Source: Thermotoga caldifontis AZM44c09 | Lineage (GTDB): Bacteria; Thermotogota; Thermotogae; Thermotogales; DSM-5069 | Assembly: GCF_000828655.1 (NCBI RefSeq) | Contig: NZ_AP014509.1 | Location: 62,001 to 126,000 of the forward strand | Reading direction: 5' to 3' | Length of the DNA: 64,000 nucleotides | Part shown: piece by piece, positions 19,645 to 46,537 of the stretch | Layout of the letters: the number at the start of each line of letters is the position of its first letter | Numbering within the stretch: the first letter of the stretch is position 1 | The notes under the pieces: generated by a model | What the model was told of the DNA's origin: nothing | The model's input: only the letters and a program-made list of their open reading frames with translations | The model's database searches: none | Position numbers and translations under genes: made by a program

Positions 19645-20649
19645 TTGACGACAGCCACGTTGTTCGGTTACTACGGTTACGACAACCTCGGAGACGAACT
19701 GCTCTGCGAGGAGAGCATCAGAATCCTCAAAGAGGCAGGTTTTGAAAGGATCTACCTTCTGCTGAGAAAAGAAAAGCTGAAAAGTTTCTCTCGACCAGGC
19801 GTGATTCCCATCGACAGGTTCAATCCCGCAAAAGTTCTTGGAGCGATCCTGAGAAGCAAAGTGGTCGTGTGCGGTGGAGGAGGAATCCTCCAGGACGAAA
19901 CGAGCTTGAAGAGCTTGATTTATTACTGCTCCATAATCTACGCCGCTTCGATCCTGAACAAACCTGTACTGCTCTTGGCGAACAGCCTGGGGCCTTTGAA
20001 GCACGGGATCTCCAGATGCCTCGTGAGTAACATCCTGCGCAGAAAGAACGTTTTTTTCATCGCCCGCGACAGGGTGAGTTACAGGTACGCCAGACTCGTC
20101 GGTGCGAAGAACGTTTCCCTCGGAACAGACCTCGCGATTGGGGCTATGGAGTATTTGCAATCTCAGGAGAAACAGAGAAAAATCAGCCTGTGCCTGAAGA
20201 AAGAATTCGACCTCGATCTGATAATAGAATCGGCGAAGCTCTACGGCTTCGAACCCGTCCTCGTTCCACTGAGCCCGCAGGACGAGCCCGCGTGTCTGAA
20301 ACTGGCGAAAAAATACAGTTTACCGATCTCTCACCAGCTCGTGAAGGACCTTCTCTCTTCCTCGCTCGTCGTATCGCAACGTCTGCACGGTTGTCTTTTG
20401 GCGGCTCTGACCGGCTCACCCTTCATTTCTCTGAACAGCTCGAAGAGCAAGAGATTCCTTGAAAGATACTTCCCCAAGTACGAGGGTTTCTGCATGAAAG
20501 AAGACCCAGCGCAGATCGTACTCGCCATGGTGAGACTGAAAGACATCAGGCTCGAAGCGAAGAAGATGGTCGAAGATTTCACGAAGATGCGTCAGGAAGC
20601 GATCGACCTTCTGAGAACCGTTTCGAGTAGAAAAAAGGAGAGGGGCTGA
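19645..20649 (+). CDS. csaB: Polysaccharide pyruvyl transferase CsaB
   Basis: 334 residues. The CsaB/WcaK family pattern is clear: GYYGYDNLGDELL at the N-terminus, VVCGGGGILQDETS, NSLGPL, and the C-terminal sugar-nucleotide half with SQRLHGCLLAALTGSPF. CsaB adds pyruvate ketals to cell-wall polysaccharide, which in Gram-positives anchors SLH-domain proteins. In Thermotogales SLH proteins such as Omp-alpha tie the toga to the wall, so a similar anchoring role is likely (inference). The TTG at 19645 follows GAGGAG by 10 bases. The stop is adjacent to the encapsulin stop on the other strand. Confidence 0.9.
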   Translation: MTTATLFGYYGYDNLGDELLCEESIRILKEAGFERIYLLLRKEKLKSFSRPGVIPIDRFNPAKVLGAILRSKVVVCGGGGILQDETSLKSLIYYCSIIYAASILNKPVLLLANSLGPLKHGISRCLVSNILRRKNVFFIARDRVSYRYARLVGAKNVSLGTDLAIGAMEYLQSQEKQRKISLCLKKEFDLDLIIESAKLYGFEPVLVPLSPQDEPACLKLAKKYSLPISHQLVKDLLSSSLVVSQRLHGCLLAALTGSPFISLNSSKSKRFLERYFPKYEGFCMKEDPAQIVLAMVRLKDIRLEAKKMVEDFTKMRQEAIDLLRTVSSRKKERG

Positions 20650-20659
20650 TCAGCCCCTC
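20631..20659 (-). terminator. Intrinsic terminator of the encapsulin operon (inside csaB 3' end)
   Basis: Bases 20640-20659 form a perfect 20-base palindrome (GAGGGGCTGA/TCAGCCCCTC) centred on the two back-to-back stop codons TGA|TCA of csaB and the encapsulin gene. On the minus strand it is followed after three bases by six T residues (complement of 20631-20636), the layout of an intrinsic terminator. On the plus strand no T-tract follows, so it seems one-directional, although the hairpin would also form at the end of csaB mRNA. Confidence 0.75.
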
Positions 20660-21444
20660 AGCGCGCATATCGAATTGGGTTCTTTCACAAGCAACGTCAA
20701 GCTCTCAGAGACGTAGAACTCTAAAGCGTGGTCCTTCGGACCGATGAAACCTATCGACAGATCCTGACCGAGGATGAGGGAAGCGTAGAGCGGAGAATCG
20801 CAGATCAGTACTCCAGAATTCTGCAGAATCGGTGCCTTGTAGATCTTTTTGACCATCGTGAGCAGATGTTCCATCTCCGTCTGGTTGCCATTTTCGTACC
20901 TTCTGAACAGTTTGTTGTACCTGTCCGGAGACAACGCGAGCAGATAAGGACCGTGAAAGCCCGCTTCATCCAGTTTCGTGATCGCCGTGATCACGTCTTC
21001 CACCGCCTGACCAACCTTTTTCCAGTCGCTCAGGTTCACTTCCACACCCGCCAGGCTCAAGAGTCCTTTCTGGTCAGCTATACCGTGGAAGATCAACTTC
21101 TCTTCGAATTGAACGCATTCCAAAACCGCCCTGGTGAAATCCGAAAGATCGATCGCGACCTTCTCTCTTTCGAACGCGGCGATGTCCCTCACGGAGAGCT
21201 CGAACGTTCTGTGCACGTAGTAAAGTGGCAGACTCTTCGAGACGAACACACCGTTCTCAAGCTTTTCGTCCGCCAGAGAAACCTGCTTGACACCGACACC
21301 GAGCGGTCCAACGAGGTTCAAAATCTTCCTTCCGGTGAGGTTCGCCTTCGCCAGTTCCAGCATGGATTCGTTCAACAGCTTCCACAGTTCCTCACTTATC
21401 GGTGCTTCTTCCTGCATCAAATACCTGTTCGCCACGTCAATCAC
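20650..21444 (-). CDS. Encapsulin nanocompartment shell protein
   Basis: 264 residues, the size of the HK97-fold encapsulin shell. Segments such as GPLGVGVKQV, KSLPLYYV, DLSDFTRAVL and the C-terminal SLILGQDLSIGF align by eye with Thermotoga maritima encapsulin. The shell self-assembles into an icosahedral protein compartment. It is the second gene of a two-gene operon and overlaps the cargo gene by 8 bases. In the T. maritima protein a Trp (W87) in the segment after KSLPL stacks on bound flavin. Here the matching segment reads ELSVRDI with no Trp, so flavin binding at that site is doubtful. ATG start with an adequate upstream site inside the cargo gene. Confidence 0.93.
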   Translation of the reverse strand: MIDVANRYLMQEEAPISEELWKLLNESMLELAKANLTGRKILNLVGPLGVGVKQVSLADEKLENGVFVSKSLPLYYVHRTFELSVRDIAAFEREKVAIDLSDFTRAVLECVQFEEKLIFHGIADQKGLLSLAGVEVNLSDWKKVGQAVEDVITAITKLDEAGFHGPYLLALSPDRYNKLFRRYENGNQTEMEHLLTMVKKIYKAPILQNSGVLICDSPLYASLILGQDLSIGFIGPKDHALEFYVSESLTLLVKEPNSICALRG

Positions 21445-21778
21445 CTTCTTTCAGCGAACCAACGGTTGGCTCCTCGTCGTCCCCTTCGGCCATCAGTTGT
21501 TCGACCTCTTTGAACCCTTCTTCCATGAACTTCGCCTCATCTTTCGTGAGTATGTCCAGAAGCTTCGTGAACTCACCGATGTGCACCCTCTCTTCGTTGG
21601 CTATGTCGATGAGAACCTTTCTGGCCAGCGGATGATCCGTCGCATCGGCGATCGCCATGTACTGATGGACCGCTTCGTGCTCGGCGGCGATGTTCAACCT
21701 TATGGCGCGGACGAGTTCTGACAGCGTGAGCTTCCTGTCCGGAACCTTTCCACTGAAAGGATTGACGAATTCAGGCAT
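21437..21778 (-). CDS. Encapsulated ferritin-like cargo protein (EncFtn/Flp type)
   Basis: 113 residues from the ATG at 21778, with AAGGGGTG just upstream. Two helices carry the half-ferritin di-iron residues: Glu33/Glu35 in AAEHEAVHQY and ExxH at Glu63-His66 in IANEERVHIGEF. Such proteins dimerise to build a ferroxidase site. The C-terminus is an acidic linker ending in PTVGSLKEGD, which matches the TVGSL-type cargo-loading peptide of encapsulins. So the protein should sit on the inner shell surface and oxidise Fe2+ for storage. A longer in-frame start at 21805 is rejected because it lacks a ribosome site and runs into the promoter. Confidence 0.92.
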   Translation of the reverse strand: MPEFVNPFSGKVPDRKLTLSELVRAIRLNIAAEHEAVHQYMAIADATDHPLARKVLIDIANEERVHIGEFTKLLDILTKDEAKFMEEGFKEVEQLMAEGDDEEPTVGSLKEGD

Positions 21779-21795
21779 TCTATCACCCCTTGTCA

Positions 21796-21801
21796 ATTGT
21801 A
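21796..21801 (-). promoter_or_regulatory. -10 box of the encapsulin operon
   Basis: TACAAT on the minus strand (complement of 21796-21801) lies about 18 bases before the cargo gene ATG, giving a short leader that begins near its AAGGGGTG ribosome site. No strong -35 box is seen. No clear palindromic Fur site was recognised in the 137-base gap between the two divergent iron genes. Confidence 0.45.
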
Positions 21802-21915
21802 GCACAAAAATGGATCAAAACCATTCCTTAGGCTTTGAGAAAAAACACAGTTCCAGATCCCCGGTGTTGTTCGTTCAACGAATTAGATTTAGAATTTGAA
21901 CAGGAGGGAAACGGT

Positions 21916-22764
21916 TTGGAACCGAGTGGCGATAAAACCGTCCTGCTGAGAATGCAGAAGGCGGAGATGACGGAATACATAGTCTATTCAAAACTTGCCA
22001 GAATGGACGAGAAGAACTCCGAGGTTCTCTCGAGGATCGCGAAAGACGAGCTGGCGCACTACAAGAAGCTGAAAAGCTTCACGCAGACCGACGTGACACC
22101 GAGCTGGTGGAAGGTGATCTTCTATCTCTTCCTCGTGAAGCTTTTAGGTATAACCTTCACCTTGAAGCTGATGGAGCAGAACGAAGAGGAGGCGCAGAAA
22201 AAGTACAGCGACATCGGGCAAACGGAACTGCTGAGCGACGAAGAGGAGCACGAAAAATTGTTGCTCAAGCTTATAGACGAAGAGAGGATCGAGTACATAG
22301 GCTCGATGGTCTTAGGGTTGAACGATGCGCTCGTGGAACTAACGGGCGCGCTCGCAGGTTTAACGTTAGCGATACAGAACGCGAAGATAGTGGCGCTGTC
22401 CGGTATCATCACGGGACTCGCCGCCGCACTCTCCATGTCCGCGTCGGATTATCTGTCGCGGAAGTCTGAAGGTGGAAACAAGAAACCCTTGAGGTCCGCC
22501 CTCTACACCGGCATCGCGTACCTGATCACGGTACTGTTTCTGGTCTTTCCGTACATCGTTCTGAACCGTCCCATCGTGTCGCTCTGCTGGACCATAGCGA
22601 ACGCAGTTCTTGTGATATTCGTTTTCACCTTCTTCGTGTCCGTGGTCAGGGAGGAAAACTTCAAGAAGAACTTTTTGGAGATGCTCTCGATCAGCATGGG
22701 CGTCGCGGCCGTTTCGTTCTTCATAGGGCTGCTGGCACGAAAGTTTTTCAACATAGAGGTATAG
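21916..22764 (+). CDS. Ferritin-like/VIT1 membrane protein (MbfA-type iron or manganese exporter)
   Basis: 282 residues from TTG 21916, which has AGGAGGG 7 bases upstream. The N-terminal 130 residues form a rubrerythrin/ferritin-like domain with two E...ExxH sets (KAEMTEY...DELAHYK and EQNEEEA...DEEEHEKL). The C-terminal half is a VIT1/CCC1 transporter: five hydrophobic segments, with GLNDALVELTGALAGLTLAI, the SMSASDYLSRKSE motif and two late helices. MbfA-like proteins of this build export iron from the cytoplasm. It is divergent from the encapsulin-ferritin operon with 137 bases between, a coherent iron-handling locus. It could also move Mn2+. Confidence 0.9.
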   Translation: MEPSGDKTVLLRMQKAEMTEYIVYSKLARMDEKNSEVLSRIAKDELAHYKKLKSFTQTDVTPSWWKVIFYLFLVKLLGITFTLKLMEQNEEEAQKKYSDIGQTELLSDEEEHEKLLLKLIDEERIEYIGSMVLGLNDALVELTGALAGLTLAIQNAKIVALSGIITGLAAALSMSASDYLSRKSEGGNKKPLRSALYTGIAYLITVLFLVFPYIVLNRPIVSLCWTIANAVLVIFVFTFFVSVVREENFKKNFLEMLSISMGVAAVSFFIGLLARKFFNIEV

Positions 22765-22767
22765 CAC

Positions 22768-23568
22768 GTGAAAATCTACTGTGAACCTCTCATGCGAAAG
22801 GTTGAACTTTCAAACAGAATCGAGAGGATCGTGAGCCTGGTTTCAGGATTCACCGAAACCATCTTCGAGATGGGCCATGGCAGCCGTGTGGTGGGCGTGT
22901 CGAAGTACTGTGCACGGTACGTGAGGAACCTCAACGCCGAAGTGGTTGGAGATTATCTGAACGTCGATCTTTCGAAACTGAGATCGCTCGAACCGGACCT
23001 GATACTCTTAACGACGGGTGTTCAAATGAAGCTTGCGCTCGATCTGGTACGGGAAGGCTTTCCCGTCTTCGTCCTGCCTTTGCCGAGGAGCATCAACGGT
23101 GTTTGGGAGAACGTGGTACTGCTGGGCGGTCTTTTGAACGACGTAGAAGCTGCGCGCAGGCTCGTCATGGAATGGCAGAAGGTGTTCCTGGAAGGTTGCG
23201 AAACCCATCGGGATAAACCTTCCGCCTATGTGGAGCTGTGGTTCGGAAGGCATCTGAGAACTGTGGGTGCTATGAGCTTTGTGAACGACGTCGTCGAATA
23301 CGCAGGACTGAAAAACATCTTTTCGAGCGTCAACGAAGCGTTCTTCATACCACCCCTGGACGAAGTGAGTTCACAAAGACCGAGGTTCGTCATCTTCTTC
23401 CACGAACCGGAGTACCCCGTCGATCCACGAGAGCTCATCGCATCGAGAGGTTGGAACTGGGATATGAAACTGATAGAATCCACGGTGGAGGCCGGAAAAA
23501 ACCTGATACACGACGGACCATCGATGATGCGCACGGTGAGATGGCTGAGGGAACAAATCTGGAGGTGA
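22768..23568 (+). CDS. BtuF-like corrinoid/metal-chelate binding protein without signal peptide
   Basis: 266 residues. The fold pattern is that of class III periplasmic binding proteins for cobalamin or siderophores: RIERIVSLVSGFTETIFEMG, VVGVSKYC, VVGDYLNVDLSKLRSLEPDLIL, then a second lobe. No signal peptide or lipobox is visible, which is unusual for BtuF. Similar cytoplasmic-looking versions occur as lone genes. No BtuC or BtuD gene is adjacent. It starts 4 bases after the VIT1 gene with a weak GAGGTAT site and is followed by the MFS gene, so it may be cotranscribed with both. The ligand is unknown; the AdoCbl-dependent KamDE enzyme elsewhere in the window makes cobalamin plausible. Confidence 0.7.
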   Translation: MKIYCEPLMRKVELSNRIERIVSLVSGFTETIFEMGHGSRVVGVSKYCARYVRNLNAEVVGDYLNVDLSKLRSLEPDLILLTTGVQMKLALDLVREGFPVFVLPLPRSINGVWENVVLLGGLLNDVEAARRLVMEWQKVFLEGCETHRDKPSAYVELWFGRHLRTVGAMSFVNDVVEYAGLKNIFSSVNEAFFIPPLDEVSSQRPRFVIFFHEPEYPVDPRELIASRGWNWDMKLIESTVEAGKNLIHDGPSMMRTVRWLREQIWR

Positions 23569-44853: not shown

Positions 44854-46151
44854 AATTCTTCTGGCTCACAGCGTTCGTCGGTTTGTCGACTGGGGTGATC
44901 CTCTCCCCAGTCTTTCCTTTAACCCTTCTGGCATCCTTGCTGTTGTTCTTCAAGAAGAGGTACCTGATCGCCTTCGTCGTCTTCTTCTGTCTTGGAAATT
45001 TTCTCGCATCGGTACAGAGAATCAGTGGATCTTGCGAGATCGTGGGCTACGCCACGGTGGAAAGGTCGAACCACGTGATCGCCACGAACGTCAAGGTCTT
45101 CTCGAACGGTGGATGGGAAAGAATTCTGCACAGTGTGAAAATCTACAGCGAAGACATTCAAGCAGGTGAGAAGTTCTACGCTTTTGGAAATCTCAGTTTT
45201 CAGTTCGCCTATCCCGCGTTGACGATGAAGGCAGACTTCGCTTCATCGACGAGGTACGGAAACGAAGGTTTCGAGAAGCTCCATTCGAAGCTGATCGATT
45301 TCAAAAGGAGGATCGTCGATTTCTTCCGCAAGAACGTTCCAGACTACGCCGAACAACTCTCCACGCTCGTCTTCTCGGATCCTTCCTTCGATGCGTCCCA
45401 GGCCGAGAGAGTGAGGAAGAGTGGCCTGGCACACCTGTTCGCAGTTTCCGGACTGCACGTTGGGATCGTTTACACATTGTTCGACTTACTCGTATCGCTC
45501 TTCACCCACAACCTCTTCGTGCGGAGACCTCTGTCCACCCTGCTGACCTTCACGTTCGCACTCATGACGGGACCTTCTCCATCGGCGCTCAGGGCCGCGA
45601 CGATGCTCGCGGTGTGGAACCTCTTCAGGTCGATCGATTATCCCATAGAACCGCTGAACCTGCTCGGCCTGGTTGCGACGATGAACCTTCTGTTCGAGCC
45701 TTTCGTGGTTCTGTCTCCATCTTTTCTGATGAGTTATTCGGCCGCCGCAACCCTCGTCGCGATCCAGGAAAGGTTGAGAAATCTGCACGGTGCGATCAAG
45801 AATCTTCTGATCTCTCTGTTCGCCTTTGCGGGCGTGGCACCGTTCTTGCTACTCTTTTCCACATTGAACCTTTTCGCTCCGCTGCTCAGCGTTCCAGCCA
45901 TTTTGATCGCCACGCTGATTCTTTGGACGTGCGTTCTCGTCATGTTCCTGCTCACGATGAATCTACAGAGCGCCGCAACCATCCTGATCCGCGGCGCCAC
46001 ACCCCTGTTCTGGTCTCTGCAGGGATTGATCGATCTGTCCTCGAAGTTTTTGAACCTGTCGGGTAACTTCGTGGTTTATTTGATCTCCTCCGCGTTGCTC
46101 TTGTTTTTACTCTGGCACTTCGGACAGAGTCCGAAGAACTTCACGTCGTAA
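44850..46151 (+). CDS. comEC: DNA uptake channel ComEC/Rec2, without C-terminal hydrolase domain
   Basis: 433 residues with about 9-11 membrane helices. The Competence domain is recognised by AHLFAVSGLHVGIVYTLFD (about residue 195-213) and the TGPSPSALRAATM segment, preceded by a DUF4131-like N-terminal region. The metallo-beta-lactamase-like nuclease domain found after the channel in many ComEC proteins is missing; the protein ends at the last helix. ComEC carries single-stranded DNA across the inner membrane. It starts in the apgM stop and overlaps the convergent fur gene by 76 bases. Confidence 0.88.
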   Translation: MKFFWLTAFVGLSTGVILSPVFPLTLLASLLLFFKKRYLIAFVVFFCLGNFLASVQRISGSCEIVGYATVERSNHVIATNVKVFSNGGWERILHSVKIYSEDIQAGEKFYAFGNLSFQFAYPALTMKADFASSTRYGNEGFEKLHSKLIDFKRRIVDFFRKNVPDYAEQLSTLVFSDPSFDASQAERVRKSGLAHLFAVSGLHVGIVYTLFDLLVSLFTHNLFVRRPLSTLLTFTFALMTGPSPSALRAATMLAVWNLFRSIDYPIEPLNLLGLVATMNLLFEPFVVLSPSFLMSYSAAATLVAIQERLRNLHGAIKNLLISLFAFAGVAPFLLLFSTLNLFAPLLSVPAILIATLILWTCVLVMFLLTMNLQSAATILIRGATPLFWSLQGLIDLSSKFLNLSGNFVVYLISSALLLFLLWHFGQSPKNFTS

Positions 46152-46537
46152 TCCATCACGGTGTAACCTGTTTGTTTTTCAACGTTCCTCACCAGCTGCT
46201 TGACGAGCTGCTCGTCTATCTCCAGCACTTCACCACAGCTCTTGCATATCACGTGCTGGTGCACCGTCTCCGCATCCGGCGCGGCCAGTTCGTAGCGGTA
46301 CACGCCTTCACCGAATTCGAGTCTCCTCAAGAAGCCGAGCTTGCTCAAAAGCTCCACGGTTCTGTAAACGGTCGCTTTGCTTATTCTGTACCTCTTCTCC
46401 AAAAGTTTCCTGTACACATCCTCCGCGCCGAGATGCCTTTCACCCGATTCGGCAAAGACCTTCAGCACGATCTCCCTCTGGGCGGTCATTCTATACTTCC
46501 TCGATCTCAGTTCTTTTCTCAGCGATTCGTAGAGCAT
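46076..46537 (-). CDS. Fur-family metalloregulator
   Basis: 153 residues. A winged helix (about 10-85, RYRISKATVYRTVELLSKLG as recognition region) is followed by the metal-binding dimer domain: HQHVICKSCGEVLEI and the C-terminal CPKCQ give two CxxC pairs for structural zinc, and several histidines form the sensory site. It could be Fur, Zur or PerR, which cannot be separated by eye. The iron locus at 20.6-22.8 kb is an obvious possible target. It follows nusA closely (13 bases) in the rimP-nusA transcript and overlaps comEC at its 3' end. Confidence 0.93.
   Translation of the reverse strand: MLYESLRKELRSRKYRMTAQREIVLKVFAESGERHLGAEDVYRKLLEKRYRISKATVYRTVELLSKLGFLRRLEFGEGVYRYELAAPDAETVHQHVICKSCGEVLEIDEQLVKQLVRNVEKQTGYTVMDYDVKFFGLCPKCQSKNKSNAEEIK

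Follow-up and report, generated by a model that had tools for sequence, protein, structure and literature searches.

Among the described systems, the encapsulin locus of Thermotoga maritima (PDB 3dkt, 7kq5) combines a family 1 shell with a directly upstream gene for a ferritin-like cargo that carries a C-terminal loading peptide, and the EncA shell of Myxococcus xanthus is served by several cargos including EncB and EncC. In characterised relatives of the encapsulated ferritins (EncFtn), the cargo oxidises Fe2+ and the shell holds the mineral. The fate of the iron in encapsulins has been called unclear in a review, which also limits the MbfA-type iron exporters to alpha-proteobacteria (PMC7762939, from 2020). 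In MbfA of Bradyrhizobium and Agrobacterium an N-terminal ferritin-like domain is fused to a VIT1 transporter; the ferritin-like domain gathers cytosolic Fe2+, the VIT1 part exports it, and iron is what the bacterial examples cited in that review export (PMC7762939). In Bradyrhizobium, MbfA is the partner of an iron store: Irr represses it together with bacterioferritin (Bfr), combined loss of the two is synthetically lethal, and a two-hybrid assay detected binding between the ferritin-like domains of both proteins (PMC4902296). Archaeal rubrerythrin-VIT1 fusions have the same domain order and, as far as the accessible text of that report goes, have not been reported beside encapsulins (PMC8773360).

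We analyzed a stretch of 64,000 nucleotides from the thermophile Thermotoga caldifontis AZM44c09 (GCF_000828655.1, NZ_AP014509.1 positions 62,001-126,000), called the window in the following, and all coordinates refer to it. An initial annotation had proposed a gene for an encapsulin shell, one for its cargo and, 137 bp away on the other strand, one for a ferritin-like domain fused to a VIT1 transporter. All three genes were found with the proposed coordinates, and 137 bp indeed lie between the ATG of the cargo (21778) and the TTG of the putative exporter (21916):

20640..20659, minus strand: strong intrinsic terminator GAGGGGCTGATCAGCCCCTC with T-rich tail where the shell gene ends, closing the cargo-shell operon
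20650..21444, minus strand: family 1 encapsulin shell, 264 aa, GTG start at 21444 (alternative GTG at 21435, 261 aa)
21437..21778, minus strand: EncFtn/EncB-family ferritin-like cargo, 113 aa (NF058679, phmmer)
21452..21466, minus strand: core TVGSL of the cargo-loading peptide at the cargo C-terminus EEPTVGSLKEGD
21581..21592, minus strand: ExxH (E63-R-V-H66; EERVH) of the predicted cargo ferroxidase site, together with E33
21779..21915, no strand: divergent promoter region of 137 bp between the cargo and exporter starts
21809-21825, no strand: palindrome (imperfect or perfect) AATGKAKCRAAAMCATT in a conserved block
21870-21882, no strand: palindrome (imperfect or perfect) TTCGTTNAACGAA in a conserved block
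21916..22764, plus strand: ferritin-like + VIT1 (CCC1-type) membrane protein, 282 aa (PF01988), TTG start after AGGAGG
21934..22278, plus strand: N-terminal ferritin-like diiron domain, aa 7-121 (invariant Glu/His set, low-confidence AF2 helices)
22288..22761, plus strand: VIT1 transporter part, aa 125-282 (phmmer to EgVIT1 6iu3)
22768..23568, plus strand: Peripla_BP_2/TroA-like protein (PF01497 4e-14, NF038402), 3 bp past the exporter

On the minus strand the cargo gene precedes the shell gene. The GTG at 21444 results in an 8-bp overlap with the cargo gene, and the GTG at 21435 matches the Met start of relatives. We assume with moderate confidence that this trio represents a module for iron sequestration and iron efflux. 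Its parts are known, whereas we came across no description of their conserved arrangement in the literature searched: no paper in the open-access collection used combines Pseudothermotoga with encapsulin, an absence that is no proof of novelty, and a transporter or exporter is not mentioned in a large encapsulin survey, at least in its main text.

The shell matches the NCBIfam profile encap_f1 (NF041155; E=2e-63, 214 bits, cut-off 100) and the Pfam profile Linocin_M18 (PF04454; E=9e-69, 232 bits), and its AlphaFold2 model (pLDDT 91.6) has M. xanthus EncA as best structural match (Foldseek E=3e-26, TM about 0.84), which together confirm the proposed shell gene as a family 1 encapsulin with HK97 fold. 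EncA is also the nearest solved shell by sequence, with 119 bits versus 90 bits for the T. maritima shell, although the identity to EncA is 32% and the E-loop region of the present shell is shorter. The identity to the T. maritima shell is 29%, and the flavin-stacking tryptophan of that protein (Trp87/90, which stacks FMN) is absent; the aligned position is Arg86, a residue that is near-invariant within the present shell lineage. The present shell is a lineage separate from the T. maritima shell and structurally nearest to Myxococcus EncA.

The cargo follows the same pattern. It matches the NCBIfam profile EncB_fam (NF058679; 112 bits, cut-off 90), and the nearest solved relatives in phmmer searches are M. 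xanthus EncC (1e-13) and the EncFtn of P. furiosus (2e-12). E33, E63 and H66 are invariant in the cargo alignment, and a C-terminal (T/S)(V/I)GS(L/M) motif is present in all f1/f11 cargos with an intact end, mostly as TIGSL or TIGSM in the Chloroflexota and methanogen relatives. The annotated ExxH residues and TVGSL-type loading peptide are thus real features (EERVH and EEPTVGSLKEGD) that are kept in shell-bearing relatives. An EncB-family cargo with such a peptide is again a likeness to M. xanthus, whereas several cargos are found there and one here, where an exporter lies alongside. The T. maritima cargo belongs to another subtype with the loading peptide GGDLGIRK instead of TVGSL. In genome G090 the cargo is likewise of another subtype and ends with the T. 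maritima loading peptide GGDLGIRKL. The shell of this genome shares 29% identity with the present one, and the exporter homologue is located 283 kb away. The suspicion that the head-to-head exporter is not part of the T. maritima locus was correct, as no exporter is found there (L104, L105), but this locus is an unsuitable yardstick because its shell and its cargo are both of another lineage.

A scan of a genome collection detected the present shell lineage in Thermotogota, Chloroflexota, Atribacterota, Armatimonadota, Planctomycetota and methanogenic archaea. Each locus has a cargo gene just upstream of the shell, and most of the loci show a TIGSL- or TVGSL-like tail. The Thermotogota sequences form one clade that groups with Atribacterota (100/100; 92/97 in a midpoint-rooted tree), which suggests that this lineage has probably been spread by horizontal transfer. 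The comparison shows that two distantly related encapsulin lineages exist within the Thermotogota, so T. maritima cannot serve as model for all of them.

Close homologues of the cargo (46-66% identity) are also encoded without a shell in 36 Thermotogota genomes outside both trio-bearing families (L072-L089; e.g. L110:5877-6224). The loading peptide is absent in all 18 intact shell-less homologues whose C-terminus was read. These homologues and the T. maritima-type shell (34 genomes) never occur together, with an expected overlap of 13.8 if phylogeny is ignored.

The divergent gene product matches the Pfam profile VIT1 (PF01988) with 64.6 bits at a cut-off of 28.1. In this protein by itself the N-terminal ferritin-like domain reaches E=0.022 for Rubrerythrin, which is under the Pfam cut-off, but Rubrerythrin matches were obtained for 8 of 11 close relatives (best 1.2e-5), and all 11 aligned Thermotogota exporters share the diiron-type residues E20, E45-x2-H48, E87/E90 and E109-x2-H112. 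The AlphaFold2 model, built from four sequences, has a pLDDT of 57, and its Foldseek matches are mostly ferritins with E about 1, hence we take it as weak support only. A phmmer comparison with plant EgVIT1 (6iu3) aligned aa 126-188 to positions 11-73 and aa 188-256 to positions 140-208, which means that the VIT1 part is devoid of about 67 residues located between TM2 and TM3 of the plant protein. In plant VIT1 a cytosolic metal-binding domain sits at this place. As this insert is missing, the N-terminal ferritin-like domain probably takes over its role.

Calling this protein MbfA-type, as had been done initially, is appropriate for the domain architecture, but the NCBIfam MbfA equivalog NF045676 (cut-off 450 bits) gave no match to it even at E<=10; the exporter homologue of T. 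maritima scores 33 bits against this profile. The protein is also shorter than MbfA, with about 280 aa against a model of 318 positions, and the partner store is an encapsulin here and a bacterioferritin there. Orthologous ferritin-VIT1 proteins are encoded in Chloroflexota, Atribacterota and methanogens carrying the same encapsulin lineage (L143-L154).

To follow the gene pair across relatives we surveyed 103 Thermotogota genomes. The exporter is head-to-head with cargo and shell in four genomes of the genus, including that of the window, in genome G062 of the sister genus and at two loci of genome G101, which belongs to another family of the class, and the coding regions of these trios are separated by about 80-150 bp. 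In three further genomes of the sister genus (G063, G064 and G065) other genes are inserted and the exporter is 1-7 kb away from cargo and shell. The exporter is unlinked only in G057. The genes flanking the trio are flagellar/fliM-type genes and a polysaccharide pyruvyltransferase in the genus of the window, genes which we take from the starts of their proteins to be purE/purC on one side and pyrE on the other in G062, and, in G101, valS as well as glutamate kinase/aldehyde dehydrogenase. As the flanking genes differ between the groups, the three genes either stayed linked or travelled jointly. In the exporter tree the G101 proteins nest inside the family of the window as sister to G062 (88/92), whereas the identity of the G101 valS is 85% and 73% to its own family versus 64-68% to the family of the window. 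Exporters from one family next to a native valS fit a joint transfer of all three genes. Contamination as source of this trio is unlikely for contig C38, since the adjacent valS groups with G101's own family. A second trio on contig 27 of G101 (L100:2975-4497) has a shell cut to about 86 aa with intact cargo and exporter, and a copy in G102 (L102:5929-7066) is broken by stop codons.

As a control we used the 19 genomes that hold a T. maritima-type shell and the same exporter, and in none of them are the two linked. Linkage that is kept in several contexts and absent from the control points to a lineage-specific but repeatedly maintained trait; the pairing first noticed in a single genome is conserved and no chance neighbourhood. 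Outside the Thermotogota, linkage was sought in 24 genomes and none was found; in 13 genomes with the present shell lineage and a located exporter, distances or contig extents place shell and exporter apart. The same exporter is also encoded in many genomes without the present shell.

The 137-bp region between the divergent genes contains two blocks (21793-21830 and 21866-21900) that are conserved in an alignment of four species of the genus, and each of them includes one of the palindromes. A genome-wide search returned no other occurrence of TTCGTTNAACGAA and three further matches with two mismatches for AATGKAKCRAAAMCATT, one of which lies some 3 kb past the feoAB start and not at the promoter. 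A shared operator for the trio was rejected as neither palindrome recurs upstream of feoAB, and since they recur nowhere meaningful in the genome, neither defines a regulon. A scan for sigma-70 promoters performed no better than on shuffled sequences. One of the two Fur-family regulator genes of the genome is located in the window (46136-46498, minus strand), about 24 kb from the locus. The genome also encodes one ordinary ferritin, so that the encapsulin is not the only iron store, and together with FeoAB this makes the trio one part of the iron economy of the host.

Since several related species have kept the three genes together or received them jointly, storage and expulsion of iron may well be coupled functions, and the module is best read as a putative functional analog of the Bradyrhizobium Bfr/MbfA pair. 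By comparison with characterised relatives, the EncFtn cargo would act as ferroxidase on Fe2+ and the shell would store the ferric mineral formed by the cargo. The divergent gene would provide a VIT1-type exporter of the inner membrane, whose cytosolic ferritin-like diiron domain would capture Fe2+ and hand it over to the five-helix transporter, and the VIT1 part would expel the iron from the cytosol; activity and direction would be those of the characterised proteins of this architecture. Storage and export would each reduce the free Fe2+ of the cytosol, and both arms would be required simultaneously at high iron or following an oxidant burst. The initial proposal of a locus for sequestration and release holds with regard to the conserved pairing, but "release" has to be understood as export of cytosolic iron, as nothing indicates removal of iron from the compartment. 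A conserved and transferable pair of encapsulin and exporter offers a concrete candidate partner for the exit of iron in a heat-stable system. A more far-reaching version, a mobile three-gene cassette for storing or expelling iron whose EncA-lineage encapsulin and ferritin-VIT1 exporter are switched on jointly from one divergent promoter region and in which the ferritin-like domain of the exporter is coupled to the compartment, seems unlikely to us; if it were true, iron could be routed either into the mineral or out of the cell.

The trio could also reflect history: shell and cargo may have landed by horizontal transfer beside a resident exporter in one ancestor and have not been separated everywhere, with no joint function beyond general iron homeostasis. 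The exporter lies by pyrE both in the linked state (G062) and in the unlinked state (G057) and may therefore have been the gene already in place, no such link is seen in other lineages with the present shell, and the searches with the two palindromes revealed no shared operator. This explanation is nevertheless rather improbable in our opinion, as the head-to-head arrangement with short spacing occurs in at least four flanking contexts, two of the loci belonging to another family of the class, and the unrelated T. maritima-type shells never adjoin the exporter (0/19). Synteny is often retained between partners that touch each other physically, and a direct hand-off is conceivable in which the ferritin-like domain of the exporter docks on the EncFtn cargo or the shell, so that iron leaving or reaching the compartment is passed directly to the membrane. 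The binding of the MbfA ferritin-like domain to bacterioferritin in the two-hybrid assay is in line with this idea (PMC4902296). The shell surrounds the cargo, however, which means that the exporter must bind either the shell or unassembled cargo, and members of the exporter family are also encoded where a shell is missing. We know of no such contact for any encapsulin and regard a hand-off of this kind as very unlikely.

Considering that VIT/CCC1 proteins can move Mn2+ as well as Fe2+, the divergent protein might export another metal such as Mn2+, or it might mainly be a membrane-bound diiron peroxidase in a locus for general oxidant or metal stress. The resemblance of its N-terminal domain to rubrerythrin argues in this direction, and the archaeal rubrerythrin-VIT1 fusions are proposed to act in peroxide defence (PMC8773360). 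But the genes next to it encode a ferroxidase compartment dedicated to iron, and the review PMC7762939 cites bacterial proteins of the same architecture that have been characterised as iron exporters; we consider this explanation highly improbable. We prefer the module that both stores and expels iron.

The exporter gene is followed by the Peripla_BP_2/TroA-like gene, whose product has no apparent signal peptide by eye and is possibly a cytosolic binder of metal or cofactor. In each of the four examined genomes of the genus this gene adjoins the exporter, an arrangement seen only in this genus, and genes for an MFS transporter, an aminotransferase and an ABC exporter are located further downstream.
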